This document shows positions 1 through 58,261 of a DNA stretch of 64,000 nucleotides, piece by piece (within the stretch, counting starts at the first letter, position 1; each line of letters starts with the position of its first letter). This stretch comes from Elephas maximus indicus. Taxonomy: Eukaryota; Chordata; Mammalia; Proboscidea; Elephantidae. The DNA lies in assembly GCF_024166365.1 (NCBI RefSeq), contig NC_064826.1:19678001-19742000 (forward strand), in the 5' to 3' direction. The notes beneath the pieces are model-generated. The model had not been told where the DNA came from, searched no databases, and saw only the letters and a list, made by a program, of their open reading frames with translations. The translations under genes were made by a program, and so were the position numbers.

Positions 1-3000
1 AGATATGGACATTCCATCTTACCGGAAGCTATGCTTCTTTTCCTCTCAGTGAGTTCAGTAGTCCTCCCCAGCCTTTCCTCAACCTGTATTCATCCCCCTT
101 AATGATTCAACCCCCTTAACCCTTAATCAACTGAGCTCACTTCATGAGCTTATTTCAGTAAGATTTTGTCTCAATGCCTGAAGTTATGCCCATCTCTCCC
201 CACTTCCCACAAGCCCAACCCAATTTCTTCCCAATGTCTCCACCCATCCAGCCCTCTCAAACCCGGTGCAAATCCTCATCCCCAACAGCTACCCTTCCCC
301 ACTAGATACATAGTAGTTAGAGCCTGGCAGAAATTTTCACCCTTTCAACACCGGTCAAGGCTGTAAGAGCAGTCATTCCTTCCTACCCCTTGCTCTCCAC
401 CGGTTTTGCTCATTTCTTTCCCTGGCCAGCTCCTTGCAGGCTGGCTTCCACACTCTAAGTTCTATCACCTGGGACCATGTGAGACCTACCAGCATTCCTC
501 TGTTGCTCTTCTCCATGCTCCCCAAGTCAGAGTCCACCCTGACTCACTCTGACAGCACTATAATTTTGCTCATTCCTTGGGTACTTCCATTACTTTGTCC
601 TTCTTTCCTTTGTGACACTCCTGTTTCTCTGCATCATCACTTTCCCATTTTTCATTCTTTCTACCTTTCCTTAAGTGACACGTGTCTTCTGTTTGTCCCC
701 TTGGCTCTTCTGTATGACCCATATGCCTCTAAACTACCAACTGCCTGCCATTTGAATGGCTTCGGTCATCATTCCTCCAAAGGCGTGTGCTCCCTTCTTT
801 GACCTGCTCTCAGCGCTCAAACTCTTTCCATCCTCTTGCTCTCCCACAATCCTTACGGAATCCATTATCTTTCACAACTCCTGACGTTCCCTTGGTTTCC
901 AACCTCCACCTTCCCTTTCGGAACACTTTCCTTAGGCCTTTCCCACTCTATATTTCTTCCTCTTCTTTCTCCCATTTACACAGGTGCTTCCACTCAATGC
1001 TTTACAGGCCATTTCCTCACTTCATTGCCTTTTCTTCTTCTCCCCTCCGTTGCTTCCATTTCACCTTGATGGTGCATCGTGGCATATCTCTGTTAATCGC
1101 ACTTTTCCACACTCCCTGTAGTGAGACCCTGCAGTTGCCCCCTTGCTTCTCTTTCCTTGCTCGCCACACTGCCTTCTCAAAACACCATCTTCCAGTTGTA
1201 AGACCATCTTCTTTCCTGTGTACCATGATCCATCCTCTTCTCTTTTTCATGCTGTGTTATCCTCTACATGGAAACTATTAGCAACAAACTTCCCTCTGTA
1301 CTTTCTTTGCTCCCTCTGTACCAATTTGATAGGGATATTAACTTTGTGGACTGTATTTCTCACACCACTTCAGTTTTGCCAGGAATCCCCTCTGGCCCTC
1401 ATAGCCTCTATAGTTTTCCACCTATTGCTAAACCTCCATCCTTTTAACCAGCATTGATAGCAGAAACACCGATTCAGTAATCTTTACAAAAAATATGTCA
1501 ACATTGATTGCCACCCACACTCGACCATTTGCGAAGATCTTTGCTACCCACATACTGGACTCAGTCCACGTTAGTCCATCCCAAAGATCCTCATCTTATC
1601 TGCCAGTGATTTTCATTCAGCTTGCATCTTCATGTGCAACCTTGTTCCTTTTCCTCTGTTCAACCCAAGTCATCATGGCCTTTTACCCTTGACAGCCATG
1701 GTTCTTCACATGCCTGGTCCTTCTCCTCCCTTCTCTCTTCTCTACTGCTATACGTACAACCTAACTTTAATACCACACATGCCACCAAGCAGACCCCTGA
1801 AATCTGCCAATGTTCCTAGTTTGAGAATAGCCTATTCCACTTTCCTACTTTGCTTATTGGCTGCCTTGCTGATTCAGAAACCCCTGCCAATTTAAAAGGT
1901 TCTATCCCTTTTTTCATGCCTTCTTTCTTCTCCATCAGTTTTTCCACTGTACTCCCATCCCACTCAGTGCCCGTCATGTCTGCCTACCTGCAGCTGCCTC
2001 CGTACACACTGGGTACAGCTTAGAGGAAGCACAGCTCTCCTGGGCATTTTGGGCTCCTTTTGTCTTCAAGGGATACTAGCTTCATCTAACTATTCATCCA
2101 TAGGCCCCCTACCATTTCAAAGCCTATGGATGGATTCAGCAGTCTTTTCAAGGACATCTACACCCTTATTGACATACCCTCAACTGCTCCCACAATTTCC
2201 AGCTTCTTGGTCCCCAACCTGCTGTCTGATTTCATCCCTAGCCATCCTACGTTCCCACTTCTGCCATTTTGGCAACAGTCATTTTCTCTTACGCCATCTC
2301 TCCCAACTTTCATCCCCTTGACATGCTTCCCCTTTCATTTCCGTGTTTGTCTCCAGCGTATCCAAGGTGCCACACCTTCAACAACCCCATTCTACTTTGA
2401 CCTCATCCCACTTCTCGTTACTTTCACGCTTCTTACTCACCTTAATACTCTTTCTCCTCCATGATCTTCCTCAACCACTTTGCCGCTTTTGGGGGGAAAG
2501 TTCCTGGATTCTGCATTTTTACTCCCTCTCTGCTTTCTTGGTAACGCATCTCCTGGTGCAGTACATTCCCCGAACACAAGAACAGCCTCTCCTCTCTAAC
2601 CTGATATGCTATGTCTACTCTCCTTTCTCCTCATCTGTGGACCAACTCTCAGCTATCGCATCCTCCCATGTTTTTCAAACTCCTCACCTGATCTCTAAGC
2701 TCCTGGGGCGAATGTTACTGTGTTTCTTACATTCCCACTCTATTGCACAGCAAACTACTCTCAAACCTTACCCCTTTGATATCTTCTTAGCTACCGTCTG
2801 TGAATCTTTGGGCTGGATTCGCTAGACTTCTCTGCTCTCTCCTCTCTTCTTGAACCCCCCATATGCTACTCAACCCAATTCAGTACTCCTTGCTTCAGAC
2901 ATACTGTACTGAATCCACATGCTTTGCCCACGAACCCATGCTCATGTCGCTAAGGACGCAGTATGCAGTTTTATTCAGATCCCATGAATTTTTGCTCTAT

Positions 3001-3795
3001 TTTTTCATTTTTGCAATCAGACCTCTTTCAAAATATTCAGGCAAAGCTCTCAGGGAGGTTCTTCCTGTGGATCTCCTACCTTTTCCTTTCCCCAGAGCAT
3101 TTTTACCTCCTGCCCAGATGCTTAACCCCTTACTCAACTGAAACACTTTCGGCCCTCCTCTCCTGCTCTGTAGAGAGCTCTCAGGCTGGGTACAACGGAC
3201 CAACCCTCTTTCTTCTTCCTCTACCTAACACTCCTCTTCAAAATCCTCTCTTTCAACTTCTTCCCTCTCTTTTACCCCTTCCTTCAGCATGGACGCCCCA
3301 TCCAGTGCTGTTTCCCAACTTCCACACAACCCATCTGCCCTGTACTTGCAACTCTCTTCTTTCTCATCCTTACTTCTCAGTCCTTCTCTATCGTCTAACC
3401 ACCACTTTCATTTGCCCTCCCTGCACTTGACCATGAGTCCCAACCCAACAGTCATCATTTTAAGTGCCTTCACGGCTACATCCATTTGCTCGCTGTCAAA
3501 CTCCTCCTCACCCTCGGTACTTCACTCCCACCTGACTGTCTTGAGTCTGATGCCTCTATCTCCCAACTCAGAAACATCATCTACTCATACCGTCCATCTT
3601 CACCTGCTCTCTACAGTCTTCCTTCACCAGTAATTCTCACCCGAGGACACATGACCCCGAAGGTAGCCCATCAGCTTCATCTGTCAGGGTTGTTTTTTGC
3701 GGAACCGAGCTCAGCCCCCAGATTGATAGGACTGCCTTAGGGGTTCATGCCCACAGCCCCCCTCAGGTGAAATTCATACCCCCCATCCTCAGTAA
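1..3795. repeat. Satellite unit U1 (A type, left end cut by window)
   Basis: Position 1 corresponds to about base 415 of unit U3 (7363), so a full copy would be about 4.2 kb. It carries A-type signatures: CACTATAATTTTGCTCATTCC near 558, and the segment near 3110 that reads CAGATGCTTAACCCCTTACT. It is otherwise complete up to the boundary motif at 3796. Confidence 0.85.
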
Positions 3796-6700
3796 GAATC
3801 ACTGCTGTGGAGGGAAGGCCACCTTTATTCCCTGTACTTCACTTTCCCTTTGCTTCTTGTGATTGCTATTTTACAGGTCCTAGATCTAGCATTTTCTCCA
3901 CTCTGATATAAGACTGCCAGTCTCCTTTGGAATCACCTTATTCCCTTCCATATTGACTTGTGGACACACCGTGTGTTCTGAACCACACTCTGCATTCAAG
4001 AATTGCTGCCTTCAACCTCCCACTGGTTCCCAACCATTATTACTCTTAGGCATTCTGTCAGTATCTTTGGCACCAGTTGGTCCTACCTGGTGGTTATTAT
4101 TGTCCTTCCTGAACCTGCCTTTTTTAAGTGTAAATGGCTAGGTGGCACTGCACAGCCTTCCCCCTTTGGTCCGCAAGTCTCTCTAGGTACTTTGCCAACC
4201 AGACATGACTTTCCACTTTACCAGAGCTACACTCCTTTTCCTCCTGGGTGGATTCAGTTCTACTCCCAAGCCCTTCCTCAACCTGTATTCATCCTCCTTA
4301 ACCCTTTGACATGTAATCAGTTCATAAGCTGAATTAAATAAGATTTTGACTCAATACCTGGAGTTATGCCCATCTGTCCCCATTTCCCACAACCCCAACA
4401 GGACATCTTCCTACCCTGTCCCCCCTACCATCCCATTCAAACCTGATCCTGAACCTGGTCCCTGCCAGTCACCTGTCCCCTCTGGATCCATAGTAGTAAA
4501 GAGCCTGGCAGAAATATTCACCCTTTCAACACTAGTCAAGGCTTTAAAAGCACCCATTCCTACCTGCCCATTGCTCTCCATCATGTTTGCTCTTTTCCTT
4601 CCCAGTCCTGCTCCTTGCAGGCTGGCCTCCACAACATAGGTTCCTTAAAGTGGGTACATCTGAGGTCTACCAGCATTCCTCTGTTGGTATGCCCCCTCAT
4701 CACCTGCCTCCCCCTGTAGGTGTCCAGCCTGCCTTACATTGACAGCACTGTAATTGCACTCCTTCCTTGGGAGCTCCTCCTTACTCTGTCCTTCTTTCCT
4801 TTGTGACACTCCTGTTTCTCTACACCATCACCTCATTATTTCAGTCACCCTTTCTGCCTTTCCTCAAGTGACACGTGTCTTCTGATTGGCACCTTGGCTA
4901 TGGACTAACACCCTGCCTCTTCTACATGGCCCACATGCCTCTAAACAACCAACTGCCTGTCATTCGAATGGATTCAATCATCTTTCCTCCATAGGCATAT
5001 GCTCCCTTTTGAGACCTGATCTCACTTCTGAAACTCTTCCCATCCTCTTGCTCTACCACAATCCTTTGGGAATCCCTTACTTTTCACAACTTCTGATGTT
5101 CGCTTGATTCCGACCTTCCATTTCAGAGCCCTCTCCTTATGCCACTTCCACTCTAATACTTCTTCCTATTGTCTCTTCCATTTCCACAGGTGCTTTCGCA
5201 CAGTCCTTTACAGGCCATTTCCTCACTTCATCCCCTCTTCCTCTTCTCGCCTCCACTTGAAATTGATGGTACATCATGGCACATCTCTACCAATCGTACT
5301 TGTCCAGCATCTCCCTAGTGAGACCCTGCAGTTACCCCCTTGTTCCTCCTTCCCTATTCACCACACTGCCTTCACAAAACACCATCTTCCACTGGTAAGG
5401 GCATCTTCTCTCTTGTGTACGATGCTCCACCCTCTTCTCTTCTTCCTGCTCCGATATCCTCTACATGAAAACTATCAACCACAAACTTGCCTTTGTACCT
5501 TCCGTAATCCCTCTTTGCCAGTTTCCTAGGGACATTAACTTTGTGGACTGTACTTCTCTCACCACTTCGGGTTTGCCAGGATTCCCCTCTGGCCCTGGTA
5601 GGTTCTACAGTTTTCCCACCTAACGCTAAACCTCCATCTTTTTAACCACTACTGAATAGCAGATGTCACCTCAATATTGATTTCCACCCACATTCAACCA
5701 TGTTCAAACATCTTTGCTACCCACATACGAGACTCAGTCCGCAGAGTCCATCCTGAAGTCCCTCAGCTTACCCGCCAGTGGTTTTCATTCAGGTTGCATC
5801 TTCATGTGCAACCTTATCCGTTTTCCTCTATTCAACCCAAGTCATTACAGCCCTTTGTTCCACTTTCCCTTAAGAGCCCTGATTCTTCAAATGCCTAGGC
5901 ATTCTTCTCCCTTGTCTCCACTTTTACAGCCCATATAACCTGGTTCATTAGACTGGATTCATTAGACTTCTCTGCTCCCTTTTGAGCCCCCACATTCTGC
6001 TCAACCCACATCAGTACTGCTTGGATCACATGTCCTATACTGAATCCACACACTCTGCCCGTGAGTCCACGCCCAGGTTCCTAAGGACACACTCTCAGGT
6101 TTTATTCAGGTGCTGAGAAATTTTGCTGTCTATAATCTTTCATTTTAGCATTCAGACCCCTTACTTCAAAATGTTTAGACAGAGCTCTCAGAGAGGTTCT
6201 TCCTGTGGTCTCCTACCTTTTTCCTATCCCCAGAACATTTTTGCCTTCTGCTCAGACACTTGACCGCATACCGCAACTCAACTACACTTAGCCTTCACTC
6301 CTGCTCTGCAGAGAGCTCCCTGGCTGGATACAATGGATGAACCTTCTTTCTTTCTTCTCCTGCTTAGCACTCCTCTTTTTAAAATGCTGTTCCAATGTTC
6401 TCTTCCCTCCTTTCGCCCCTCCCTTCAGCATGCACACCCTATCCTATGCTGTTTCCAAACATCCACACAACCCATCTGCTCTGTAGTCACCACTCCCTTC
6501 TCTCTCAGCCTTACTTCTCAGTCCTTCTCTGTCCCCTAACCACCACCTTGCATCTGTCCTCCCTACTCTTGACCATGAGTCCCAACCCGACAGTCATTGT
6601 TTTAAGTGCCTTAACAGCTACATCCATTTGCTTGCTGTCAAATTTGTCCTTGTCCTCTGTACTGCTCTCCCACCCCTGACTGTCTTGAGTATGATGCCTC

Positions 6701-6947
6701 CATCTCCCCAACTCAGAAGTGTCATCTACTCATGCTTCCCAGCTCTCCTCAGCTCTCTACTGTCCCCCTTCCAGCAGTGATTCTCACCCAAGGACACATG
6801 ACCCCCAAGGTGGCCTATCAGCTTAATCTGTCAGGGTTGTTTTTGAGCGGAACCCCGCTCAGCCCCCAGATGTTTTGATAGGCCTGCCTTAGGGGTTCAT
6901 GCCCACAGCCCCCCTCAGGTGAAATTCACACCCCCCATCCTCGGTAA
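3796..6947. repeat. Satellite unit U2 (B type, ~1.08-kb internal deletion)
   Basis: B-type signatures are GACAGCACTGTAATTGCACTCC near 4740 and CAGACACTTGACCGCATACC near 6263. At about 5937-5945 the text jumps from the segment equivalent to U3 9105 to the one equivalent to U3 10182. That removes about 1.08 kb and accounts for the shorter length (about 3152 against 4233 bp). Confidence 0.85.
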
Positions 6948-9900
6948 GAATCACTGCTGTGGAGGGAGGCCACCTGTACTCCCTGTGCTTCACTTTCCCT
7001 TTGCTTCTTGTGGTTGAAATTTACAGGTCCTACTCAAAGATCTCGGCATTTTCCCCACTCTGCTATAAGACTGCCTGAATCTCCTTTTGGAATCGCCTTA
7101 TTCTCTTCCATATTGACTCTTGAGCACACCATGCACTCTAAACCACACCCTGCATTAAAAAGTTGTTGCTTTCAACCTCCCACCGGCTACAAACCATTAT
7201 TACTCTTAGGAATTCTGTCAGTATCTTTGGCCCCAGTCTGGTCCTATCTGGTGCTTATTATTGTCCTTCCTTAAATAGCCCTTTTTGAGTGTAAATGACA
7301 AGGTGGTACCGCTGAGCCTTCCCTCTTTGGCCCTGAAGTCTTCCTAGGTATTTTGCCAACTGGACATGGACATTCCGCCTTACCAGAACCTATGTTTCTT
7401 TTCTTCTCTGTGAGGTCAGTAGCCCTCCCCAGCCTTTCCTCAACCTGTATTCATCCCCCTTAATGATTCAGTCCCCTTAACCCTTAACCAATGGAGCTTA
7501 CTTCATGAGCTCAATTCAGTAAGATTTTATCTCAATGCCTAGAGTTATGCCCATCTCTCCCCACTTCCCACAGGCCCAACCCAGTTTCTCCCCACCCTCT
7601 GCACCCATCCAATCCACTCAAACCCAGTGCCAATCCTGAACCCCAACAGCTACCCTTCCCTGCTAGATACATAGTAGTAAAGAGCCTGGCAGCAATTTTC
7701 ACCCTTTCAACACTAGTCAAGGCTCTAAGAGCAGTCATTCCTTCCTACCCATTGTTCTCTATCGCTTTTTGCTCATTTTCTTCCCCGTCCAGCTCCTTGC
7801 AGGCTGGCTTCCACACCCTGAGTTCCATCAGTTGGGACCATATGAAACCTGCCAGCATTCCACTATTGCTCTTCATGTTCCCCAAGTCAGACTCCAGCCT
7901 GATCCACTTGAACAACACTATAATTTTACTCATTCCTTGGGTCTTCCATTACTTTTGTCCTTCTTTCTTTGTGACACTCCTGTTTCTCCACATCATCACT
8001 TTCCCATTTTTCATTTTCTCTTTCCACCGTTCCTCAAGTAACACTTGTCTTCTGTTTGTCCCCTTGGCTCTGGACTAATACCCTGCGTCTTCTATATGGC
8101 CGGTATGCCTCTAAACTACCAACTGTCTGCCATTCGAATGGCTTCAGTCATCTTTCCTGCACAGGCCTGTGCATCCTTCTTTGACCTCCTCTCACCATTC
8201 AAACTTTCTGTCCTCTTGCTCTGCCACGATCATTATGGAATCCATTACCTTTCACTGCTCCTGATGTTCCCTTCATTTCCAACCTCTACCTTCCCTTTCA
8301 GAACCCTAAGGCCTCTCCCGCTCTAATATTTCTTCCTCTTCTCTCTTCCACTGACACAGGTGCTTTCACTCAGTCCTTCACAGACTATTTTCTCACTTCA
8401 TCCCCCTTCCATTTCGCTTTGATGGTGCATCATGCCATATCTCTGCTAATCACACTTTTCTGCACTCTCCCTGGTAAGCCACTGCGGCTACCCCCTTGCT
8501 TCTCCTTCCCTGTTCACCACACTTCCTTCTCATAACACCATCTTGCAATTGTAAGACCATTTTCTTTCCTGTGTACCATGCTCCATCCTCTTCTCTTTTG
8601 CATGCTTTACTATCTCTACATGGAAACTATCAACAACAAACTTCCCTCTGTACCTTCCTTGCTACCTCTGTTTCAATTTGTTGAGGATATTAACTTTATG
8701 GACTGTACTTCTCACACCACTTCGGTTTTTCCAGGATTCCCCTCTGGCCCTGGTAGCCTCTACAGTTTTTCCACCTAACACTAAACTTCCATCCTTTTAA
8801 CCAGTATTGATAGCAGAAACACTGATTCAGTAATCTTTACAACACATGTCAGCATTGATTCCCCCCCACACTCCACCATTTGCAAACATCTGTGCTATCC
8901 ACATACTGCACTCAGTTCATGTGAGACCATCCGGGAATCCCTCACCTTCCCTGCCAGTGATTTTCATTGAGGTTGCATCTTCATGTGCAACCCTCTCCAC
9001 TTTCCTCTGTTCAACCCAAGTCATTATGGCCCTTTACCCCACTTTCCTTTAACAGCCAGGGCTCTTTGCATGCCTGGGCCATCTATTCTCTTCCCTCTTT
9101 TCTACTGCTACAGCCTACAATCTTACCTTAATTCCACACATGCCATTGAGTAGACCCCCTGAGATCTGCTGATGTTCCTATTCCACTTTCTTACTTTAGT
9201 TATTGGCCCCCTTGCTGATTCAGAAACCCTTGCCAATTCAAAAAGATTCTCCCCCTTTTTTCATGCCTTCTTTCTTTTCATCAGCTCTTCCCACTGAACT
9301 CACATTCCACCCAGCACCCTGTCACATCTCACTACCTGCAGCTGCCTCCATACATACTAGGTACAGCTTAAAGGATACACAGCTGCCTTGGGCTTTTCAG
9401 CCTGCTCTTGTTTTCAAGGGATACTAGCTTCATCCAACTATTCATCCATAGGCCCCCTACTATTTGAAACCTGTGGATGGATTCAGTAGTCTTTTCATGG
9501 ATATCTACACCCAGGTTGACCTACCCTCACTGCTCCTACTATTTCCAGCTTCTTAATCCCCAACCTTCTGTACTGAATCCATTGACTGTCTGAATTCACC
9601 CCTAGCCATCCTACATTTCCCCTTCTGCCATTCTGCAACAGTCAATATCTCTTTCACCATCTCTCTACCTTCCATCCCCTTGACATGCTTCCACTTTAAT
9701 TTCCATGCCTGTTTCCAGTGTCTTCAAGGTACCACACCCTCAACAACCCCATTCTATTTTTACCTCATCCCACTTCTCATTACTTTGACACTTCTTACTC
9801 ACATAATACTCTTTCTCCTCCTTTGTCTTCTTCAACCACTTTGCCAATTTTTGGAGGATAGTTCCTGGATTCTCCGTTTTCACTCCCCCTCCAGTATCTT

Positions 9901-11180
9901 GTTCATGGATCTCATGGTGCAGTACATTCTCTGAACACCTGAACAAGCCTCTCCTCTCTTAATTGATATGCCATGTCTGCTCTTCCTTCTCCTTCTCATC
10001 TATGGACCAGCTCTCAGCTATCACACTCTCCCATGTTTTCCAAACTCCTATCTGATCTTTAGCTCCTGGGGCCAATGTTACTTCTCTCCTACATTCCCAC
10101 TCTGTTGCACAGCAAATTACTTCAAACCTTAACCCTGTGATATTTTCTCGGCTACCGTCTCTGAATCACTGAGCTGGATTCATTCGACTTGTCTGCTCTC
10201 TCCTCCCTTCTTGAACTCCCCATATGCTGCTCAAACCAATTAAGTACTCCTTACTTCAGATAGACTGTACTTACTTCAGATAGACTGTACTGAATCCACA
10301 CCCTCTGCCCATGAACCCATCCTCATGTCCCTAAGGATGCAGTGTCTGGTTTTATTCAGGGCCCAAGAATTTTTGCAGTGTATACTCTTTCATTTTTGCA
10401 ATCAGAACTCTTCTTTCAAAATATTCAGGCAAAGCTCTCAGGGAGGTTCTTCTTGTCGCTCTCCTACCTATTCCTTTCCCCAGAGCATTTTTGCCTCTTG
10501 CCCAGATGCTTGACCCTGTACCCAACTGAAACACTCTTGGCCCTCCTCCTGCAGAGAGCTCTCAGGCTGGTTACAATAGACCCCTGCCTAATACTCTTTT
10601 TTTTTTTCCCCAAAATGCTCTCTTTCAATGTTGTCTTCCCTCTCTTTTGCCCGCTCCTTCAGCAGGGACATCCCATCCAGTGGTGTTTCCTAACATTCAT
10701 ACAACCCATCTGCCCTGTAGTCACCACTCCCTTTTCTCTAAGCCCTACTTCTCAATCCTTCTCTATCCCCTAACCACCACCTTCAATTGCCCTCCCTACG
10801 CTTGACCATGAGTCCCAACCCGACAGTCATCATTTTAACTGCCTTCACAGCTACATCCATTTGCTCGCTGTCAAACTCCTCCTCGCCCTCGGTACTTCAC
10901 TCCCACCCCTGACTATCTTGACTCTGATGCCCCCACCTCCCCAACTCGGAAGCATCATCTACTCATAATGTCCATCTTACCCAGCTCTCCACTGTCCCCC
11001 TTCCACCAGTGATTCTCACCCAAGGACGCATGACCCCCCAAGGTGGCCCATCAGCTTCATCTGTCAGGGTTGTTTTTGAGCGGAACCCCACTCAGCCCCC
11101 AGATGTTTTGATAGGCCTGCCTTAGGGGTTCATGCCCACAGCCCCCCTCGGGTGAAATTCACACCCCCCATCCTCAGTAA
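6948..11180. repeat. Satellite unit U3 (A type, full length)
   Basis: A complete unit of about 4233 bp and a good reference for the A subtype: ACTATAATTTTACTCATTCC near 7917, and CAGATGCTTGACCCTGTACC near 10503. A short local tandem duplication of about 21 bp (ACTTCAGATAGACTGTACT twice) sits at 10252-10290. Confidence 0.88.
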
Positions 11181-14100: not shown

Positions 14101-15354
14101 GGTGCAGTACTTTCTTTGACCCTCTGAACAAGCCTCTCCTCTCTTACCTGAGGCCCCCATACTCTGCTTTTCCTTCTCTTTCTCATCCTTGGACCACCTC
14201 TTGGCTACAAACTGTCCAGTGTTTTCCAAACTCCTCACCTAATCTCTAGCTCCTGGGGCCAGTGTTACCATTTCTCCTGCATTCCCACTCTACTTCACAG
14301 CAAATTATTCTCATAACCTTAACCCTGTAAAATTTTCTCAGCTACCATCTGTGAATCTTTGGGCTGGATTCATTAGACTTCTCTGCTCCCTTTTGAGCCC
14401 CCCACATTCTGCTCAACCCAGGTCAGTACTGCTTGGTTCATACATACTGTACTGAATCCACACCCTCTACCCTTCAGTCCACGCTCAGGTCCCTAAGGAC
14501 ACAGTCTCAGGTTTTATTCAGGTCCTGACAAATGTTCTGTCTGTAATCTTTCATTTTTGCTTTCAGACCCCTTATTTCAAAATGTTCAGACAGAGCTCTC
14601 AGGGAGGTTCTTCCTGTCGTCTTCTACCTTTTTCCTATCCCCAGAGCATTTTTGCCTTCTGCCCAGACACTTGACCGAATACCCCAACTCACCTACACTA
14701 AGCCTTTCCTCCTGCTCTGCAGAGAGCTCTCTGGTTGGGTACAATGGATGAACCCTCTTTCCTTCCTCCCCTGCTTAGTACTCTTTTTAAAATGCTCTCC
14801 TCCAATGTTCTCTTCCCTCCCTTTTGCTCTTTCCTTCAGCATGAACACCCCATCCTGTGCTGTTTCCTAACATCCACACAACCCGTCTGCCCTGTAGTTA
14901 GCACTCCCTTTTCTCTCAGCCTTACTTCTCAATCCTTCTCTATCCCCTAACCACCACCTTACATTTGCCCTCCCTAGCCTTGACCATGAGTCTCAACCCA
15001 ACAATCACCATTTTAAGTGCTTTCATGGCTACATCCATTTGTTCGCTGTCAACCTCGTCCTCGTCCTCCGTACTTCTCTCCCACCCGACAGTCTTGAGTC
15101 CGATGCCTCCATCTCCCCAACTTGGAAGTATCATCTACTCATCCTTTCCATCTTACCTAGCTCTCCACTGTCCCTCTTCCACCAGTGATTCTCACCTGAG
15201 CACGTATGACCCCCAAGGTGTCCCATCAGCTTTATCTGTCAGGGTTGTTTTTGAACAGAACCTCCCTCAGCCCCCAGATGTTTTGGTAGGCCTGCCTTAG
15301 GGGTTCGTGCTCACAGCCCCCCTCAGGTGAAACTAGTCTACCTATCCTCTGTAA
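11181..15354. repeat. Satellite unit U4 (B type, full length)
   Basis: A complete B unit of about 4174 bp. The GGATTCAGTAGTC-like marker recurs at 11632, 12325, 12983, 13662, 14366 and about 15015, and begins the next unit at 15718. Spacings are 693, 658, 679, 704, 649 and 703 bp, so the unit reads as six monomers of about 690 bp. Confidence 0.85.
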
Positions 15355-18300
15355 GAATCACTGTTTTGTAGGGAGGGCCACGTTTATTCCCTGGGCTTCA
15401 CTTTCCCTTTGCTTCTTGTGGTTGCAATTTACAGATCCTATTCAGAGATCTTTTTTTTTTTTTTTATTCAGAGATCTAGGCATTTTCTCTACTCTGATAT
15501 AAGACTGCCAGTCTCCTTTCTGTCAGTATCTTTGGTCCCAGTCTGGTCCTACTTGTATCTTAGTATTTTCCTTCTTTAACCTACCTTTGTTGAGTGGAAA
15601 TGATAAGGTGGCACTGCTGAACCTTCACTCTTTGGCCCTTAAGTTTCTCTAGATACTTTACCAAACAGGCATGGATATTCCATCTTACTGGAAGCTACGC
15701 TTCTTTTCCTTTTGGGTAAGTTCAGTAGTCCTCCCTAGCCTTTCCTCAACCTGAATTCATCCCCCTTAACCCTTAACCAATTCAGTGCCTCCTTACTTTG
15801 TCTTTCCTTTTTGACGCTCCTGTTTCTCTATGCCATCACCTTCCCGTTATTTCATTCTCCCTTTCTGCCTTTCATCAAGTGACACGTGTCTTCTGTTTGA
15901 CCCCTTGGCTCTGGATTAACACCCTGCCTCTCCTGTATTGTGCATGGGCCTCTAAACTACCAACTGCCTGCCATTTGAATGGCTTCAGTCATCTTTCCTC
16001 CATAGGCTCGTGCTCCCTTCTTTGACCTGCTCTCACTGCTGACACACCTTCTGTCCTCTTGCTCCGCCAGGATCCTTTTGGAATCCATTACTTTCACAAC
16101 TTCTGATGTTCTCTTGATTCCAACCTCCGCCTTCCATTTTGGAGCCCTTTCCTTAGGCCTCTCCCACGCTGGAACTTTTTCCTCTTCTCTCTTTCATTTA
16201 CGCAGATGCTTTCACACAATCCTTTACAGGCTGTTTCCTCACTTCATCCCCTCTTCCTCTTCTTGCTTCCATTTTGACCTGATGGTGCATCATGGCACAC
16301 TCTGCCAATCGTACTTGCCCGCCATCTCCCTAGTGAGACCCTGAGGTTACCCCTGTGTTCTTCCTTCCCTGCTCAACACACTACCTTCTCAAAACACCAT
16401 CTTCCAATGGTAAGGGTATCTTCTTTCTTTTGTACCATGCACCATCCTCTTCTCTTTTTCCTTTTCTGCTATCCTCTACGTAAAAACTATCAACAACTAA
16501 CTTCCCTTTGTACCTTCCTTGCTCCCTCTGTGCAAATTTGCTAGGGACATTAACTTTGTGGACCGTTCTTCTCTCACCACTTCACTTTTACCAAGATTCC
16601 CCTCTGTCCCTGGTAGCCTCTGTAGTTTTTCCACTTAACACTGAACCTCCATCCTTTTAACCATCACTGAAGAGCAGAAACACAGATTCAGTAACCTTTA
16701 CAACATGTCACCTCAAGATTGATTTCCGCCCACACTCTACCATTTGCAAACATCTTTGCGACCCACATACTGGACTCAGTCCACAGAGTCCATCCTGAAG
16801 TCCCTAGCTTACCTGCCAGTGGTTTTCATTCAGGTTACATGTTCAGGTGCAACCCTATCCCTTTTCCTCTGTTCAACCCAAGTCATTATGGCCCTTTGTT
16901 CCACTTTCCCTTAAGAGCCCTGATTGTTCACATGCCTGGGCCTTCTTCTCCCTTGTCTCCTCTTCCTACAGCCCACAACCAGACCTTAATACCATACATG
17001 CCATTGAGTGGCCCCCTGAGATCTGCTGATGTTCCAGTTTGGGAATAGCCTATTCCACTTTCTCACTTTTTTGATGGCCCCTTGCTGATTAGGAAACCCT
17101 GGCTAATTCAGAAGATTCTCTCCCTTCTTTCATGCCTTCTGTGCTTTCTTTTCCATCAGTTCTTCCACTGAACTACTTTCATCCCACCCAGCACCCTGTC
17201 ATGTCTGGCTACCTGCAGCTGCCTTTGTACACACTGGGTACAGCTAAAACAGTGCACAATCTCCTGGGCATTTCGGCCAACTTTTGTCTCCAAGTGATAC
17301 TAGCTTCATCGTATACATCTACCCATAGGTCCCCTACCATTTCAAAGCCTGTGAATGGATTCAGTGATCTTTTCATGGATATCTGCACCCTAGTTGACAT
17401 ACCCTCACTGCTCCCACCATTTCCAGCTTCTTGGTCCCCAACTTGCTGCACGGAATCCACTGGCTGTCTGAATTCACCCCTAGCCATCCTACCTTTTCCC
17501 TTCTGCCTTGCCGGCAACATTTTCTCTTTTACCGTGTCTCCACCTTTCATCCCCTTGACATTGTTTAGGTGGTATACCCTAAACAATCCCATTCTGCTTT
17601 GACCTCATCCCACTTCTCCTTTCTTTCACACTTCTTACTCCCATAATACTCTTTCTCCTCCTTTGTCTTTTTCACCCACTTTGGCCCCCTTTCAAGTCAG
17701 AGTTCCTTGATTCTCCATTTTCACTCCCTCTCTCCTTTCTTGGCCATGTCTCTCCAAGTGCAGTACACTCTTTGCCCCTCTGAACCAGCCTCTCCTCTCT
17801 TACCTGAGGCCACCATACTCTCCCTTTCCTTCTCTTTCTCATCCTCGGACCACCTCTTGGCTATAAACTCTCCCATGTTTTCCAAACCCCTCACCTAATC
17901 TCTGGGGCCAATGTTACCATTTCTCCTACATTCCCACTCTACTTCACAGCAAATTACTCTTATAACCCTAATCCTGTAAAATTTTCTCAGCTACCATCTG
18001 TGAATCTTTGGGCTGGATTCATTAGACTTCTCTGTTCTCTTTTGAGCCCCCCACATTCTGCTCAACCCAAGTCAGCACTTCTTGGTTCATATGTACTGTA
18101 CTGAATCCACACCCTCTGCAAGTGACTTCACGGTCAGGTCCGTAAGGACACAGTCTCTGGTTTTGTTCAGGCCCTGACAAATTTTGCTGTCTGTAATACT
18201 CACTTATAGCAATCGGACCCCTTATTTCAAAATGTTCAGACAGAGCTCTCAGGGAGGTTCTTTCTGTTGTCTGCTACCTTTCCCCTTCCCCAGAGCATTT

Positions 18301-18843
18301 CTGCCTTCTGCCCAGACACTTGACTGCAAACCCCAACTCAACCATGCTCAGCCTTCACTCCTCTTCTGCAGAGAACTTGCTGGTTGTTTACAATGGATGA
18401 ACCTTCCTTCCTTCTTCCCCTGCTTAGCACTCTTCTTTTTAAAATGCTCTGTTCCAATGTTCTCTTCCCTCCCTCTTTTGCCCCTTCCTTCAGCATGTAC
18501 ACCCCATCCTGTGCTGTTTCCTAACATCCACATAACCTCTCTGCCCTGTAGTCGGCATTCCCTTCTCTCTCAGCCTTACTTCTCAGTCTTTCTCTCTCCC
18601 CTAACCACCACTTTGTATTTACCCTCCCTACCCTTGACCAGGAGTCCCAACCCAACAGTTACCGTTTTAAGTGCCTTCATGGCTACACCCATTTACTCAC
18701 TGTAAATCTCATCCTACTCCTCCATACTTCTCTCCCACCCGACAGTCTTGAGTCGGATGCCTCCATCCCCCCAACTCAGAAGCATCATCTAGTCATACTT
18801 TCTATCTTCCCTAGCTCTCCACTGTCTGCCTTCCACCAGTGAT
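15355..18843. repeat. Satellite unit U5 (chimera: A head, B body)
   Basis: The head to about 15,782 carries A signatures (GTCCCAGTCTGGTCC, GATAAGGTGGCACTGCTGAACC), with a small deletion near 15,512 and a poly-T insertion near 15,452. At 15,782-15,787 it joins a B body at a point about 0.95 kb into a unit. The body continues as B type (for example CAGACACTTGACTGCAAACC near 18315) and stops about 0.19 kb short of a full unit at about 18,843. Confidence 0.75.
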
Positions 18844-21542
18844 TCTCTCCTGTGGTACCCCCTTGCTTCTCTTTCCCTGCTTGCCACACTACCTTCTGAA
18901 ACACCATCTTCCAATTGTAAGACCATCTTATTTCCTGTGTTCCATGCTCTATCCTCTTCTCTTTTTCATGCCCTACCATCTTCTGCATGGAAACTATCAA
19001 CAGCACACTTCCCTCTCTGTACCTTCCTTGCTACCTCTGTGCCAATTTGCTGAGGATATTAACTTTGTGGACTCTACTTCTCCCACCACTTCAGTTTTGC
19101 CAGGATTCCCCTCTGCCCCTGCTAGCCTCTATAGTTTTCCTACCTATCACTAAACCTCCATCCTTTTAACCAGCATTGATAGCAGAAACATGGATTCAGT
19201 AATCTTTACAACATATGTCAACATTGATTTCCACCCACACTCTACCATTTGCAAACATCTTTGCTACGCAAATACTGCACACAGTTCACAGAGTCCATCC
19301 TGAAGACCCTCAGCTTACTTGCCAGTGGTTTTCGTTCAAGTTGCATCTTCATGTGCAACCCTGTCCCTTTTCCTCTGTTCAACCCAAGTCATTATGGCCC
19401 TTTGTTCCATCTTCCTGTGAGAGCCCTGATTCTTCAAATGCCTGGGTCTTCTTCTCCCTTATCTCCACTTCTACAGCCCACAGCCTGACCTTAATACCAC
19501 ACATGCCATTGAGTGGCCCCCCTGAGATCTGCCAGTGTTCTTAGTTTGGGAATAGCCTGTTCAACTTTCTTACTTTCCTTACTGCCCCCCTTGCTGATTG
19601 GAAATCCTTGCCAATTCAAAAGATTCTCTCCCTTTTTCTATGCCTTCTTTCTTTTCCATCAGTTATTCTCACTGAATTTGCATTCCACCCAGTGCCCTGT
19701 TTTGTCCCACTACCTGCATCTGCCTCCATACGCACTAGGTACAGCTTAAAGGATACACAGCTTTCCTGGGCCTTTTGGCCTGCTTTTGTCTTCAAGGGAT
19801 ACTAGCTTTATCTAATATTCATCCATAGGCTCCCTACCGTTTCATAGCCCGTGGATGGATTCAGTAGTCTTTTGATGGATATCTACACCGTTGTTGATAT
19901 ACACTCACTGTTCCCACTATTTCCAGCTTCTTGGTTCCCTGCCTGCTGTACTGAATCTACTGGCTGTCTGAATTCACCCCTAGCCATCCTGCATTCCCCC
20001 TTCTGCCATTTTAGAACAGTCATTTTCTCTTACACCATCTCTCCCAACTTTCATCCCCTTGACATGCTTCCGCTTTCATTTCCATGTTTGTCTACAGCGT
20101 CTCCAAGGTGCCACATCCTCAACAACCCCATTCTACTTTGACCTCATCCCACTTCTCGTTACTTTCACACTTCTTACTCACCATAATATTCTTTCTCCTC
20201 CTTGGTCCTTCTTACTCACTTTGTCCCTTTTGGGGGGAAAGTTCTTGGATTCTGCATTTTCACTCCCTCTCTGCTTTCTTGGTAATGCATCTCCTGATGC
20301 AGTACATTCCTGGAACATCTGAATGAGTCTTTCCTCTCTTACCTGATATGCCACGTCTACTCTTCCTTCTCCTTCTCATCCGTGGACCAGCTCTCAGCTA
20401 TCACACTCTCTCCCATGTTTCCAAACTCTTCACCTGATCTCTAACTCCTGGGGGCAATGTTACCATCTCTCCTGCATTCCCGCTCTATCGCACAACAAAT
20501 TAGTTTCAAACCTTAACCCTGTGTTATTTTCTCAGCTACCATCTCTGAATCATTGAGCTGAGCTGGATTCATTAGAACTCTCTGCTCTCTCATCCCTTCT
20601 TGAACCCCCCATACGCTGCTCAGCACAATTCAGTACACCTTGCTTCAGACATACTGTGCTGAAACCACATGCTCTGCCCCTGAACCCATGCTCAAGTCCC
20701 TCGTGAATAGTCTCTGGTTTTATTCAGGTCCCTAGAATTTTTACTGTGTATACTCGTTCATTTTTGCAGTCAGACCTCTTCTTTCAAAATATTCAGGCAA
20801 CGCTCTCAGGGAAGTTCTTCCTGTGGATCTCCTACCTTTTCCTTTCCCCAGAGCATTTTTGCCTCCTGCCCAGGTGCTTAACCCCTTACTAAACTGAAAC
20901 ACTTTCGGCCCTCCTTCCTGCTCTGCAGAGAGCTCTCAGGCTGGGTACAGTGGACCAACCCTCTTTCTTCTTCCTCTACCTAACACTCCTCTTTTCAAAA
21001 TCCTCTCTTTCAATGTTGTCTTCCCTCTCTTTTACCCCTTCCTTCAGCATGGATGCCCCATCCAGTGTTGTTTCCTAACATCCATATAACCCATCTGCCC
21101 TGTAGTTGCAGCTCTCTTCTGTCTCAGCCTTACTTCTCAGTCCTTCTCTATCGTCTGACCACCACCTTCATTTACCCTCCCTACACTTGACCATGAGTCC
21201 CAACCCAACAGTCATCATTTTAAGTGCCTTCACGGCTACATCCATTTGCTCGCTGTCAAACTCCTTCTCACCCTCAGTACTTCACTCCCACCCCTGACTG
21301 TCTTGAGTCTGATGCCTCCATCTCTCCCCAGCTCAGAATCAACCAGCTCTCCACTGTCCCCCTTCCACCAGTGATTCTCACCCAAGGACGCATGACCCCC
21401 CAAGGTGGCCCATCAGCTTCATCTGTCAGGGTTGTTTTTGAGCGGAACCCTGCTCGGCCCCCAGATGTTTTGATAGGCCTGCCTTAGGGGTCCATGCCCA
21501 CAGCCCCCCTCAGGTGAAATTCACACCCCCCATCCCCGGTAA
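18844..21542. repeat. Satellite unit U6 (A type, 5' truncated)
   Basis: It begins abruptly with TACCCCCTTGCTTCTC, a point about 1.54 kb into an A unit (equivalent to 8489 in U3). A-type text follows at 18,850-19,240 and from about 19,600 onward. A stretch at about 19,250-19,560 matches B units better, suggesting gene conversion. Confidence 0.78.
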
Positions 21543-24500
21543 GAATCACTGCTGTGGAGGAGGGCCACCTTTATTCCCTGTGCTTCACTTACCCTTTGTT
21601 TCTTGTGGTTGCAATTTACAGGTCCCATTCAAAGATCTCAGCATTTTCCCCACTCTGCTATGAGACTGCCCATCTCCTTTTGGAATCACCTTATTCCCTT
21701 CCATATTGACTTGTGGACACACCATGTGTTCTGAACCACACTCTTCATTAAAGAATTGTTGCTTTCAATCTCCACCTCCCAACCATTATTACTCTTAGGC
21801 ATTCTGTCAGTATCTCTGGCACCAGTTGGTGCTACCCAGTACTTATTATTGTCCATCCTGAACCTGCCTTTTTTGAGTGTAAATGGCAAGGTGGCATTGC
21901 AGAGCCTTCCGCCTTTGGTCCTCAAGTTTCTCTATATATTTTGCCAACCAGACAAGGACTTTCCACTTTCCCGGAGCTGCGCTCCTTTTCCTCTTCGTGG
22001 GTTCAGTAGTCCTCCCTAGCCTTCCCTCATCCTGCATTAATCTTCCTTAACCTTTGACATGTAATCAGTTCATAAGCTTAATTAAATAAGATTTTGACTC
22101 AGTGCCTGGAGTTATGCCCATCTCTCCCCTCTTCCCGCAGCCCCAGCACGATTTTTTCCTACCCTGTCCCTCCTCCCTTCTCACTCAAACCTGGTCCCAA
22201 TCCTTGTCCCTGCCAGCCACCTTTCCCCTCCGGATCCATAGTAATAAAGAGCCTGGCTGAAATTTTCACCCTTTCAACACCAGTCAAGGCTGTAAAAGCA
22301 GCCATCCCTTCCTGCCCATTGTTTTCCATGATGTTTGCTCTTTTCCTTTCCAGTCCTGCTCCTTGCTGGCTGGCCTGCACACCTGAGTTCCTTAAATTGG
22401 GTATATCTGAGATCTGCAAGCATTCCTCCGTTGGTATGCTCCCTCATCTCCTTCCTCCCCCTGTGGGTGTCCAGCCTGCCTCACTTTGACAGCACTGTAA
22501 TTTCGCTCCTTCCTCGGTAGCTCCTCCTTAGTTTGTGACGCTCCTGTTTCTCGACACCATCACCTTCTCATTATTTCAGTCTCCCTTTCTGCCTTACATC
22601 AAGGGACACGTGTCTTCTGTTTGACCCCTTGGCTCTGGACTAACACCCTGCTTCTCCTATATGGCCCGTATGCCTCTAAACTACTAACTGCCTGCCGTTT
22701 GAATGGCTTCAGTTATCTTCCCTCCTTAGGCTTGTGCTCCCTTCTTTGACCTGCACTCACCACTCACTCTTTCTGTCCTCTTGCTCCACCAGGACCCTTT
22801 TGGAATCCATTACCTTTCACAACTTCTGATGTTCCCTTGATTCTGACCCCTCTACCTTCCATTTTAGAGCCCTTTCCTTAGGACTCTCCCACTCTAGTAC
22901 TTCTTTCCTCTTTGCTCTTCTGTTTACACAGGTGCTTTCACACAGTCCTTTACAGGCCACTTCCTCACTTCACCCCCTCTGCCTCTTCTCGCCTCCATTT
23001 CAACTTGATGGTGCATCATGGCACATCTCTGCCAATCCTACTTTTCCACCCTCTCCCAAATGAGACCCTGCAGTTACCCCCTTGTTCTTCCTTCCCTGCT
23101 CAAAACACCACCTTCCAATTGTAATAGCATCTTCTTTCTTGTGTAACACGTTCCATCCTCTTCTCTTTTTCCTCCTCTGCTATCCTCTACATGAAAACTA
23201 TCAATAACAAACTTCCCTTTTTACCTTCCTTGCTCCCCCTGTGTCAATTTGCTAGGGACATTAACTTTGTGAACTGTACTTCTCTCACCACTTCGGGTTT
23301 GCCAGGATTCCCCTCTGGCCCTAGTAGGTTCTACAGTTTTTCCGCTTAACACTAAACCTCCATCCTTTTAACCACCATTGAACAGCAGAAACAAAGATTC
23401 GGTAATCTTTATGACATGTCACCTCAACATTGATTTCCAGCCACACACCACGATTTGCAAACATCTCTGCTACCCAGATACTGGACTCAGTCCACAGAGT
23501 CCATCCTGAATCCCTCAGCGTACCTACTATTAGTTTTTGTTCAGGTTGCATCGTCATGTGCAATTCTCTCTTTTCCTCTGTTCAACCCAGGTCATTATGG
23601 CCCTTTGTTCCACTTTCCCTTAAGAGCCCTGAATCTTCGAATGCCTGGGGCTTCTTTTCCCTTGTCTCCTCTTCCTATAGCCCACAACCAGACCTTAATA
23701 CCATACATGCCACTGAGTGGCCCCCTGAGATCTGCTGATGTTCCAGTTTGGGAATAGCCTATTCCACTTTCTCCCTTTCTTGATGGCCCCTTGATGATTA
23801 GGAAACGCTTGCTAATTCAGAAGATTCTCTCCCTTCTTTCATGCCTTCTGTGCTCTTTCTTTTCCATCAGTTCTTCCACTGAACTACTTGTATCCCACCC
23901 AGCACCCTGTCATGCCTGGCTACCTGCAGCTGGCTCTGTACACACTGGGTGCAGCTTAAATGATGCATAATCCTCCTGGGCATTTCAGCCACCTTTTGTC
24001 TCCAAGTGATACTAGCTTCATCATAAACATCCACCCATAGGCCCCCTACCAATTTCGAAGCCTGTAAATGGACTCGGTAGTCTTTTCACGGATATCCACA
24101 CCCTAGTTGACATACCCTCACTGCTCCCACCATTTCCAGCTTACTGGTCTCCAACTTGCTTTACTAAATCCGCTGGCTGTCTGAATTCACCTCTAGCCAT
24201 CCTACCTTTTCCCTTCTGCCATTTTGGCAACATTTTCTCTTTCACCATTTCTCCGCCTTTAATCCCCTTGACATGCTTCCCCTTTCATTTCCAGGCTTGT
24301 CTCCAACGTTTCCAAGATGCCATACCCTCAACAATCCCATTCTGCTTTGACCTCATCCCACTTCTCCTTTCTTTCACACTTCTTACTCTGGTAATACTCT
24401 TTCTCCTCCTTTGTCTTTTTCACCCACTTTGCCCCCATTTGGGGTCAGAGCTCTTTATTCTCCATTTTCACTCCCTCTCTCCTTTCTTGGCCATGTCTCT

Positions 24501-25769
24501 CCTGGTGCAGTACTTTCTTCGACCCTCTGAACAAGCCTCTCCTCTCTTACCTGAGGCCGCCATACTCTGCTTTTCCTTCTCTTTCTCATCCTTGGACTGC
24601 CTCTTGGCTTTAAACTCTCCCATGTTTTCCAAACTCCTCAGCTAACCTCTAGCTCCTGGGGCCAATGTTACCATTTCTCCTGCATTCCCACTCTACTGCA
24701 CAGCAAATTACTCTCATAACCTTAACTCTGTAACATTTTCTCAGCTATCACCTGTGAATCTTTGGGCTGGATTCATTAGACTTCTCTGCTTTCTGCTCCC
24801 TTTTGAGCCCCGCCCCCCATCCTGCTCAACCCAAGTGAGTACTGCTTGCTTCAAACATGACTCTACTGAGTCCGCACCCTCTGTCCATGAGTCCACGCTC
24901 AGGTACCTAAGGACACAGTCTAAGGTTTTATTTAGGTCCTGACAAATTTTGCTGTCTATAATCTTTCATTTTTGCCTTCAGACCCCTTATTTCAAAATGT
25001 TCAGACAGAGCTCTCAGGGAGGTTATTGTCTCCTACGGTTTTCCTCTCCCCAGAGCATTTTTGCCTTCTGCCCAGATGGTTGACCCCATACCCAAACTCA
25101 ACCACGCTCAGCCTTCCCTCCTGCTCTGCAGAGAACTCTCTTGTTGGGTACAATTGATGAACCCTCTTTCCTTCTTCCCCTGCTTAGCATTCTTCTTTTT
25201 AAAATGCTATCTTCCAATGTTCTCTTCCCTCCCTTTTATCCTTTTCTTCAGCATGGACACCCCATCCTGTGCTGTTTCCTAACATCCACACAACCCGTCT
25301 GCCCTGTAGTCTACACTCCCTTCTCTCTCAGCCTTACTTCTCAATCCTTCTCTGTCCCCTAACCACCACCTTGCTTTGCCCTCACTACCCTTGACCATGA
25401 GTCTCAACCCAACAGTCATCATTTTAAGTGCCTTCAGGGCTACATCCATTTGCTCGCTGTCAAACTCCTCCTCGTCCTCCGTACTTCTCTCCCACCCCTG
25501 GCAGTCTTGAGTTTGATGCTTCCATCTCCCCAACTCAGAAGCATCATCTACTCATACTTCCCATCTTCCCCAGCTCTCCACTGTCCCCCTTCCACCAGTG
25601 ATTCTCACCCGAGGACGCATGAGCCCCAAGGTGACCCATCAGCTTCATCTGTCAGGGTTGTTTTTGAACGGAACCCCGCTCAGCCCCCAGATGTTTTGAT
25701 AGGCCTGCCTTAGGGGTTCATGCCCGCAGCCCCCGTCGGGTAAAATTCACCCCCCCAATCCTCGGTAAG
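21543..25769. repeat. Satellite unit U7 (B type, full length, last homogenised copy)
   Basis: A full unit of about 4226 bp with B signatures (CACTGTAATTTCGCTCC near 22493, TGACCCCATACCC near 25081). Similarity to the array fades within about 100 bp after 25,769, where the diverged flank begins. Confidence 0.85.
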
Positions 25770-27450: not shown

Positions 27451-28190
27451 CCAAGCAATTTTCATTATCCTTCGTTTAATGTATGTTGATTAAGTTTTTG
27501 GTATTAAAAGCTTACATTGTTATTAAATTTGGGGAAGATAAAAAACCTTCAGCCATCTCCCTTTAGAAAGCCCAACAGATTTTCTCAACCATCACTCAAA
27601 TACTATTATAAAAACTTACTATTATAAATATCAGACATTTTAAAGAAGTTACCTAATTATTGAACACATAATTCATTCATTAGTGGACAGGTTTGTGCAG
27701 TACAAAATGATACCATACTACAACATAAGGCTATAATTACCTTTTCTTTTACACTCCAGGGAGCAATGAAAAATTTTCAAGATAAATAACTTACACATAT
27801 ACACTTTTAAATGAAGTAAACAAATAAAATTTTTGGAAGTGGTTACTTACCATTGGCGAGTTGCTTCAGTTGTCCCCTTCATTTTGTGGGGAAGATGATA
27901 GGAGTTATGTACAACACGATTAAAAACCTTGAGCATAGGCAGTGAGGCTACTGGTAGAAGAGCTGAGATACGACCGCAGTAAAAATATTCCATCTCAAAC
28001 AGAGTTTTGTGAAAACTAAAAGTTTTTGCTAGCACAAGAATGACGATTTACCGTACCAGGTGTCCCAAGCACACAGTGATACAAGGATAAAACTTTTCAC
28101 ATGGACATAACAAGGATTTGGATAGTGTGAGTAGATAGCTGGTGATACCTACATTCCTCATTCTGGGCCTCTGTAATACTTGCCATTTTG
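27451..28190. other. Non-satellite island between repeat blocks
   Basis: Base composition changes to ordinary A+T-rich DNA without pyrimidine skew. On the - strand an open frame (28,035-27,847) ends next to CCAATG|GTAAGTAA, a strong splice-donor match at 27,850/27,851. The protein is not one I recognise and no exon is proven. Confidence 0.45.
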
Positions 28191-42125: not shown

Positions 42126-54674
<12,549 letters not shown>

Positions 54675-58250: not shown

Positions 58251-58261
58251 TATGGGCATGA

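Follow-up and report, generated by a model that had tools for sequence, protein, structure and literature searches.

How large is the repeat array in the COPG2 intron beside the imprinted gene MEST in the elephant, how is it built, and how did it arise? The original prediction, made from a 64,000-nucleotide stretch of DNA (the window), described a homogenised, nested macrosatellite of which no earlier account was known. None was found among the literature matches listed, in a search with most subscription journals outside its scope.

A single tandem array occupies most of one COPG2 intron

The array is real and far larger than the window shows. In self-alignment, head-to-tail copies on the + strand fill window positions 1-25,889, with offsets of 4,221, 7,361, 10,367 and 8,411 bp, identities of 78-87% and a longest aligned block of 7.1 kb at 84% identity. 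The ~4.2-kb unit is thus clear, and low-complexity matching is ruled out as an explanation of the array, as unit alignments are kilobases long and nulls score far lower. As had been proposed, the array is cut by the left window edge: units of 4.2-4.45 kb are recognisable from C12:19,304,896, and a fringe of the same family begins near 19,303,400, ~375 kb left of the window. The 4.2-kb-type units span about 399 kb, of which 138 kb of core were placed via register and search matches only. A genome search that scored 40 of its 97 first-look candidates reported 43 matches, all on C12 at 19.306-19.702 Mb. With kb-sized, head-to-tail units on the + strand, 4,444-4,453 bp apart, in an array of hundreds of kb, this is most likely a macrosatellite, and the window contains only its decayed right shoulder.

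The placement in COPG2 is supported by PF08752, which has six exon-like matches genome-wide. Two of these bracket the array intron, covering profile positions 49-107 at C12:19300093-19300260 and 112-146 at window 38523-38627. The exon junctions (AG/GTACTG and CCAG/TTGCATG) delimit an intron of 416,253 bp, ~96% of which is a single head-to-tail tandem array of roughly 400,000 bases, in a conserved coding gene that adjoins an imprinted one. That MEST is the neighbour, again as predicted, is supported by mir-335 and three matched MESTIT1 regions; the array lies on its 3' side, ~28 kb from the presumed MEST promoter CpG island, which begins near 54.3 kb (Table 1).

Table 1. Features of the window (positions in the window)
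Feature	Position	Strand	Basis and remarks
Pyrimidine-rich strand-asymmetric domain	1..38250	+	GC/AT skew, 1-kb bins; boundary by 250-bp steps
Unit r8, subtype X	1..4147	+	Unit boundaries and tree; first 53 bases left of window
Unit r9, subtype Y, shortened (3,161 bp)	4148..7308	+	Unit boundaries and tree
Unit r10, subtype X	7309..11530	+	Unit boundaries and tree
Unit r11, subtype Y	11531..15611	+	Unit boundaries and tree
Unit r12, subtype Y, truncated	15612..18850	+	Unit boundaries and tree
Unit r13, subtype X, truncated	18851..21896	+	Unit boundaries and tree
Unit r14, subtype Y	21897..25890	+	Self-alignment, boundaries, tree; final recognisable 4.2-kb unit towards MEST
Older monomeric layer, same repeat family	28139..37136	+	Self hits, block HMM, reverse test
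COPG2 exon 3' of giant intron	38527..38624	+	PF08752 112-146; acceptor CCAG/TTGCATG, donor GTG/GTGAGT; ends judged by eye
mir-335 (MEST intron)	50547..50638	-	Rfam RF00766, 93.1 bits
37-bp repeat, 6.6 copies, edge of presumed MEST CpG island	54165..54412	.	Repeat count and CpG profile
CpG island, presumed MEST promoter/DMR	54301..55200	-	GC 0.64-0.76, CpG o/e 0.65-0.88, three 300-bp bins

Shoulder units are decayed and fall into two subtypes

Units r8-r14 are mutually only 81-88% identical (gaps ignored), so that "homogenised" does not describe the array in the window; the homogenised core is found beyond the window, at C12:19,323,663-19,648,558. Shoulder units match this core mostly at 65-82% identity. 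The window units fall into subtypes X and Y, both supported 100/100 in the tree, and the order from r7 reads r7 X Y X Y Y X Y. While two subtypes therefore exist as proposed, the strict alternation that would give an 8.4-kb period was not significant (p 0.098 over 5,040 orders; 0.042 without r12, a post hoc exclusion).

In the same tree, tips are long (0.16-0.20) for units l1-l3 and r1-r5 and the inner branches joining them short or weak; the alignment of old units contains many gaps, with 7,226 columns against a consensus of 4,280 bp. Left and right units are intermixed, suggesting that both shoulders derive from one old array, with r7-r14 and the core forming younger nested clades.

A homogeneous core, probably renewed locally

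The core measures 324,895 bp and consists of 73 units of 4,444-4,453 bp; 41 were fully read and 32 were taken from the register (two of those partly read), ~138 kb being placed by register and not letter by letter. As the array is known from a single assembly, this count of units may be partly in error. Units diverge by 0-1.6% inside each of two blocks, A and B, and by ~5.7% between them. The blocks are separated by 231 near-fixed columns, with a single A/B chimera at their junction, and core units bear private variants. Mean divergence is lowest between lag-1 neighbours (0.42% and 0.30% in blocks A and B, respectively) and broadly increases with distance in both blocks, as predicted by local duplication. 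At lag 2 it is higher than at lag 1 in both, with no dip and hence no dimeric period. Some groups of units, such as c08-c12 and c29-c33, are identical to 0.0-0.1%; such identity in a single assembly might mean that most of the core is artefactual, graph traversal during assembly having lengthened a shorter array, while the decayed shoulders are real. The private variants, the near-fixed A/B differences with one chimera between the blocks, and the growth of divergence with distance argue against this explanation, which we consider very unlikely.

Core A and core B share a 376-bp insert that is absent from all 19 other units, and a search of 105 kb, comprising the left flank, the left shoulder and the window, found no further copy; we take it to resemble an RTE-type element. 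Core bins have a GC content of about 0.50 and a CpG o/e of 0.42-0.55, as compared to a CpG o/e of 0.21-0.25 in fully old bins on either side. Substitution rates from the consensus, approximate because the consensus is a weighted majority, are raised in core B over nine old units for A>G (121 v 84 per 1000) and T>C (111 v 66) but not for C>T (99 v 120) and G>A (112 v 119), as GC-biased conversion predicts. Such conversion alone does not explain G>T (72 v 40 per 1000, core versus old) and G>C (75 v 34), and rare core variants give conflicting equilibria for A (71 sites) and B (68 sites).

The 4.45-kb unit size and the location in an imprinted domain are reminiscent of snoRNA host arrays, and the array could in principle be what is left of a repeated-gene cluster, with snoRNA, tRNA, protein-coding or LTR units, instead of a satellite. 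Yet neither 20 kb of core (stretches L026 and L017) nor the part of the array in the window gave an Rfam match that reached the gathering score, a tRNA search of L026 found none, and the longest ATG-started ORFs encode 111 aa (core B) and 157 aa (window shoulder). A gene cluster thus appears hardly credible.

A multi-unit consensus retains traces of a ~700-bp monomer

Each unit had been predicted to comprise six monomers of ~690 bp. In a weighted consensus of 4,280 bp, built from 21 rows (the consensus of core A, that of core B and 19 non-core units), repeats within the unit at 679, 705, 1,375, 1,399 and 2,093 bp scored 46.8-61.1 bits, whereas the highest of 20 Markov nulls was 38.3. Of the six segments, 2-5 share a clear signal; that of segment 1 is weaker and partly shifted in register, and segment 6 shows none that can be distinguished. 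Whole-segment identities (36.7-52.2%) overlap their null, which has a mean of 40.5 and a maximum of 50.6, so it is local blocks that support the sub-period. One window unit showed a 32.6-bit match at offset 1,339 (a score without null comparison), and the best score of a single core unit, 26.8 bits, fell within 20 nulls (22.6-31.1). A period of ~700 bp therefore holds for segments 2-5 of the consensus, but the monomer is not discernible in a single core unit or in segment 6.

The predicted nesting is supported, and extends to one more layer. Window ~28-37 kb contains monomeric copies of the same family, ~58-77% identical and irregularly spaced from 0.56 kb upwards, and this layer is common to both intron ends. 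Self hits reach 199 bits (35.4 at most in 4 Markov nulls), a block HMM scored 36.7, 23.1 and 22.7 bits (at most 5.5 for the null across 505 kb), and a reverse test gave 17.1 bits (null best 1.7). In plain blastn of window 26-38 kb against the array, only matches to one SINE exceeded the null; kinship with the array was then shown by the consensus and HMM tests. A repeated SINE at the locus is presumably Afrotherian, which fits an Afrotherian source.

Strand asymmetry and possible read-through from MEST

Across the strand-asymmetric domain, GC skew is mostly -0.3 to -0.5 and AT skew mostly -0.1 to -0.3 (1-kb bins), and the domain stops about 280 bp short of the COPG2 splice acceptor. In core B, the MEST-sense strand has 28.7 runs of at least three G per kb and the opposite strand 3.1. 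R-loop-like sites, predicted by a simplified rule of our own, number 4 versus 0 (MEST-sense versus other strand) in two core units and 8 versus 0 in the window shoulder. The two core units also carry more MEST-sense poly-A hexamers than expected (AATAAA, 6 versus 1.8; ATTAAA, 4 versus 1.1). MEST-sense read-through of the array would be G-rich and perhaps R-loop-prone.

Mouse Mest transcription is reported to run on into Copg2 in neurons, lowering Copg2 (PMC3389743; see also PMC8257706), and R-loops at the imprinted Snord116 locus to influence a convergent gene (PMC4169248). Together with the strand-biased motifs, these reports would fit a selected, copy-number-dependent regulator: paternal MEST-sense read-through (cf. 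mouse MestXL) would yield G-rich R-loop RNA and be slowed and ended in the array, tuning paternal COPG2 and protecting the rest of the gene. The 55-kb right shoulder is also SINE-poor, with one SINE bin versus 14 in 63 kb of non-array sequence (150-bp bins, in which close copies may be doubled or a single copy split). However, inserted sequence is present in all three left-shoulder units, and conservation along the unit is flat (0.67-0.80 in 100-bp bins, mean 0.73, 12 units). Substitution in nine old units draws GC skew towards -0.07, so that the array skew was probably inherited from the founder, and the substitution spectra give no support for selection for strand bias. Moreover, R-loop-like sites number 0 on either strand of the monomeric layer closest to MEST, and the window shoulder shows no excess of poly-A hexamers (AATAAA, 12 versus 9.7 expected; ATTAAA, 3 versus 6.7 expected). 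Core A, core B and the window also lack an exact match to a CTCF consensus, and a CTCF-type macrosatellite was rejected on that basis. We therefore regard a selected regulator as unlikely. As any MEST read-through would head into it, the array poses a testable question, namely whether a long strand-biased repeat shapes convergent transcription in an imprinted domain.

Proposed origin and age

We consider it highly probable that the array, with its observed layering, common orientation, intron position, strand asymmetry and tree, is an ancient, still-turning-over macrosatellite that grew within one COPG2 intron, renewed by unequal exchange and gene conversion; we infer both this process and the order of its early steps. 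A pyrimidine-rich monomer of ~0.6-0.7 kb would first have been tandemly repeated, leaving the monomeric layer at both intron ends as its remnant. About six monomers would then have formed the 4.2-kb unit, which spread as a single array. Local unequal exchange and gene conversion may subsequently have renewed successive stretches, first the X-Y stretch of the right shoulder and later the core, whose founder unit had presumably acquired the 376-bp insert; blocks A and B would have arisen last, inside the core. Units outside the active zone would decay where they stand. The array was probably tolerated because it lies inside an intron, and no essential function is needed to account for it. The layers, from monomer through decayed shoulders to near-identical core, offer a legible history of satellite growth away from a centromere.

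With pairwise divergence taken as 26% (K ~0.32), the oldest 4.2-kb layer would be 73 My old at an assumed rate of 2.2e-9 or 133 My at an assumed 1.2e-9, and related arrays are therefore possible in other placentals. A gap in the COPG2 sequence of an older human assembly would be consistent with a human counterpart. On the boldest reading, the MEST/COPG2 domain harbours a macrosatellite of great age, perhaps shared across placentals: its strand bias would render paternal MEST read-through prone to R-loops, array length would thereby tune imprinted COPG2 expression, and the corresponding intron of other mammals would contain a rapidly renewed version of its own. We consider this reading improbable.

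Comparison with known systems

Centromeric alpha-satellite has a young homogeneous core, older flanking layers, a monomeric fringe and larger units built of monomers. The COPG2 array shares this architecture, including units of diverged monomers, and to that extent resembles centromeric higher-order repeats as proposed. It differs in its 4.45-kb unit, its coding-gene intron and a core without a dimeric or other homogenised multi-unit period; no signs of a centromere were seen in the sequence.

The Snord116 tract is likewise repeated. At this Prader-Willi locus, an imprinted tract converges on another gene and R-loops are reported (PMC4169248); in the COPG2 array, R-loops are only predicted, and no RNA family was found in the two core stretches. 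The human macrosatellites DXZ4, D4Z4 and RS447 are similar in having a kb-scale head-to-tail unit and extending up to hundreds of kb (PMC3018141, PMC3599962), here apparently at one locus among the candidates scored. Unlike these, the elephant array is intronic in a coding gene, strongly strand-asymmetric, without an exact CTCF-like match and flanked by long decayed shoulders. The SST1 macrosatellite on human chromosome 19, reported to have paternal expression and periodic DMRs in placenta (PMC12644668), links a macrosatellite to parent-of-origin chromatin. The elephant array, known from sequence alone, occupies a COPG2 intron beside MEST. It shares the gene, and probably the intron, with COPG2IT1/CIT1, which we take to lie in intron 20. 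COPG2IT1/CIT1 is reported as a paternally expressed COPG2 transcript (PMC12042466, PMC3446743).

The array and its setting in the COPG2 intron

Self-alignment of the window yielded same-orientation blocks within positions 1–25,889, with offsets of 4,221, 7,361, 10,367 and 8,411 bp at 78–87% identity and further blocks down to 76%, establishing that the array is real. Queried against the genome, window positions 4201–6000 gave at least 43 matches, all on the plus strand and all at 19.306–19.702 Mb of the same contig (C12, NC_064826.1; 40 of the 97 first-look candidates scored). We mapped the array on the letters of 19,280,001–19,480,000 and 19,618,001–19,678,000 plus the window (19,678,001–19,742,000); as anticipated, it continues beyond the left window edge, and it is larger than originally reported. 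Near-identical units form a core between decayed left (l1–l3) and right (r1–r14) shoulders, with transitional units on its left (mixL, 77–92% identity to core) and right (mixR, 68–82%).

Coordinates of the array and of neighbouring gene features (C12 unless marked as window positions)
Feature	Position	Strand	Assignment or source
PF08752 profile 49–107	19300093–19300260		COPG2
PF08752 profile 112–146	19716523–19716627		COPG2
Left shoulder	starts 19,304,896
Core	19,323,663–19,648,558
Right shoulder	core end to about 19,703,890, ending inside the window
Three MESTIT1 conserved regions	window 56966–59322	−	Rfam

The core comprises 73 units (16 of type A, one A/B chimera and 56 of type B), of which 41 full units were counted from letters and 32 by register, two of the latter partly from letters. 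The 138 kb of core bridged by register correspond to 32.0 units, and 9 of the 43 window-query matches start there. "Homogenised macrosatellite", as the original prediction had it, describes the near-identical core and does not extend to the decayed part in the window. The array is most likely a macrosatellite, more layered than first noted. No prior description was found among the literature matches listed, and a term look-up for "COPG2" gave no hit in the main text of two human large-repeat surveys (PMC2588610 and PMC3599962). SST1 in placenta (PMC12644668) is a related parent-of-origin macrosatellite.

The predicted location in a COPG2 intron beside MEST was borne out. A PF08752 profile search of the whole 3.40-Gb genome returned six matches, including the COPG2 pair that brackets the array and a corresponding pair, about 1 kb apart on contig C28, which was taken for COPG1. 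Splice junctions read from the sequence (AG/GTACTG and CCAG/TTGCATG) delimit a COPG2 intron of 416,253 bp (19,300,274–19,716,526). The window has four Rfam matches, all on the minus strand: the three MESTIT1 regions and mir-335. MEST and COPG2 are therefore arranged tail to tail, with MEST running towards COPG2. The MESTIT1 regions share this strand with mir-335 despite the description of MESTIT1 as antisense to MEST. A 37-bp repeat in six to seven copies (window 54165–54412) borders the CpG island presumed to be that of MEST, possibly as part of an imprint control region.

Unit types, subtypes and monomers

Among 36 aligned units of the 41 full core units, type A units are 0–1.6% and type B units 0–0.9% apart, while A and B diverge by about 5.5–6.1%, with 231 near-fixed differing columns. 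Mean divergence is minimal between adjacent units (A, 0.42%; B, 0.30%) and on the whole climbs with lag; neither block shows a dip at lag 2, and the core therefore lacks a dimeric period. Five further full units, which close the core on its right side, were mapped only and are 99.39–99.57% identical to the reference unit.

In a tree of the 19 non-core units and the A and B consensus sequences (with good support for 9 of its 18 inner branches and weak support for 7), units l1–l3 and r1–r5 have long tips (0.16–0.20) and short inner branches, l1 grouping with r3 at 91/98. Then come r6 and a younger clade, r7–r14, located in the window and just to its left; in the core clade, mixR branches first, then mixL, then A and B. 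Two alternating subtypes with an 8.4-kb period had been proposed. Within r7–r14, both subtypes, X (r8, r10, r13) and Y (r9, r11, r12, r14), were recovered at 100/100, but their strict alternation was not significant (p 0.098; p 0.042 with r12 dropped). Multi-unit alignments in which X-Y is matched to X-Y (offsets 7,361 and 10,367) reach 83–84% identity, mismatched registers (offsets 4,221 and 14,610) 78–79%.

The suggested composition of six monomers of about 690 bp per unit held in part. No internal repeat above chance was detected in a single core unit, but a weighted 21-row consensus (4,280 bp) gave five internal matches of 46.8–61.1 bits at one, two and three times about 680–705 bp (best of 20 nulls, 38.3 bits). 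Segments 2–5 of its six segments share a block of about 150 bp at about 65% identity; segment 1 shows a weaker signal, segment 6 is indistinguishable, and whole-segment identities among the six do not exceed the null. An HMM of this block found eight matches of at least 6 bits in window 26–38 kb (best of 40 Markov nulls, 5.5). Conversely, a model built from window 28–37 kb alone matched the corresponding consensus part at 17.1 bits (best null, 1.7) and also the left intron end (19,303,393–19,304,665). The reciprocal matches indicate that, as far as tested, the whole biased domain, and not 1–25.9 kb alone, belongs to one repeat family, with a fringe of older monomeric copies at both ends.

A possible role in the imprinted domain

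By a simplified ad hoc rule, R-loop-like sites on the MEST-sense strand numbered four in two core B units and eight in the window shoulder, with none on the opposite strand in either; the monomeric layer had none on both strands. In mouse, Mest read-through reduces Copg2, according to a review (PMC3389743) and to PMC8257706. Together, the predicted sites and mouse read-through make it testable whether the array might act as a transcription brake on MEST read-through; flat conservation along the unit counts against such a role. A link to imprinting is possible and testable.

Array turnover, base composition and insertions

We suggest that the array is renewed by unequal exchange together with gene conversion, a scheme fitted by the local similarity, the A/B chimera, a core-specific 376-bp insert and the higher GC and CpG content of the core. 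The insert (unit positions 1938–2313) occurs in the consensus units of both core types, A and B, but in 0 of 19 other units and marks the founder of the core; it possibly derives from an RTE-type retroelement.

Window 1–38 kb is strongly strand-asymmetric, with a GC skew mostly of −0.3 to −0.5 that is near zero in the bins just after. Because the substitution trend in nine old units is towards 38% GC with a GC skew of −0.07, the pyrimidine bias is best viewed as a founder trait. A>G and T>C are elevated en route to the core, unlike C>T and G>A; since G>T and G>C are likewise elevated, a GC bias in the core is suggested, short of proof. The equilibria estimated from rare variants disagree between A and B (71 and 68 sites).

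SINE bins numbered three in the examined array letters (two in the left shoulder, one in the right, none in the core) and 14 over the 63 kb examined beyond it. Depletion is not general, since each of the three units of the left shoulder contains inserted sequence (173–722 bp), two of them with SINE matches. At unit consensus 3748–3930, an inverted repeat (CAGTGATTCT ... AGAATCACTG) encloses a short segment, which we take to resemble an old DNA transposon. A tRNA-type SINE occurs as two tandem copies at window 47721–48067, with relatives in the 14 bins outside the array.
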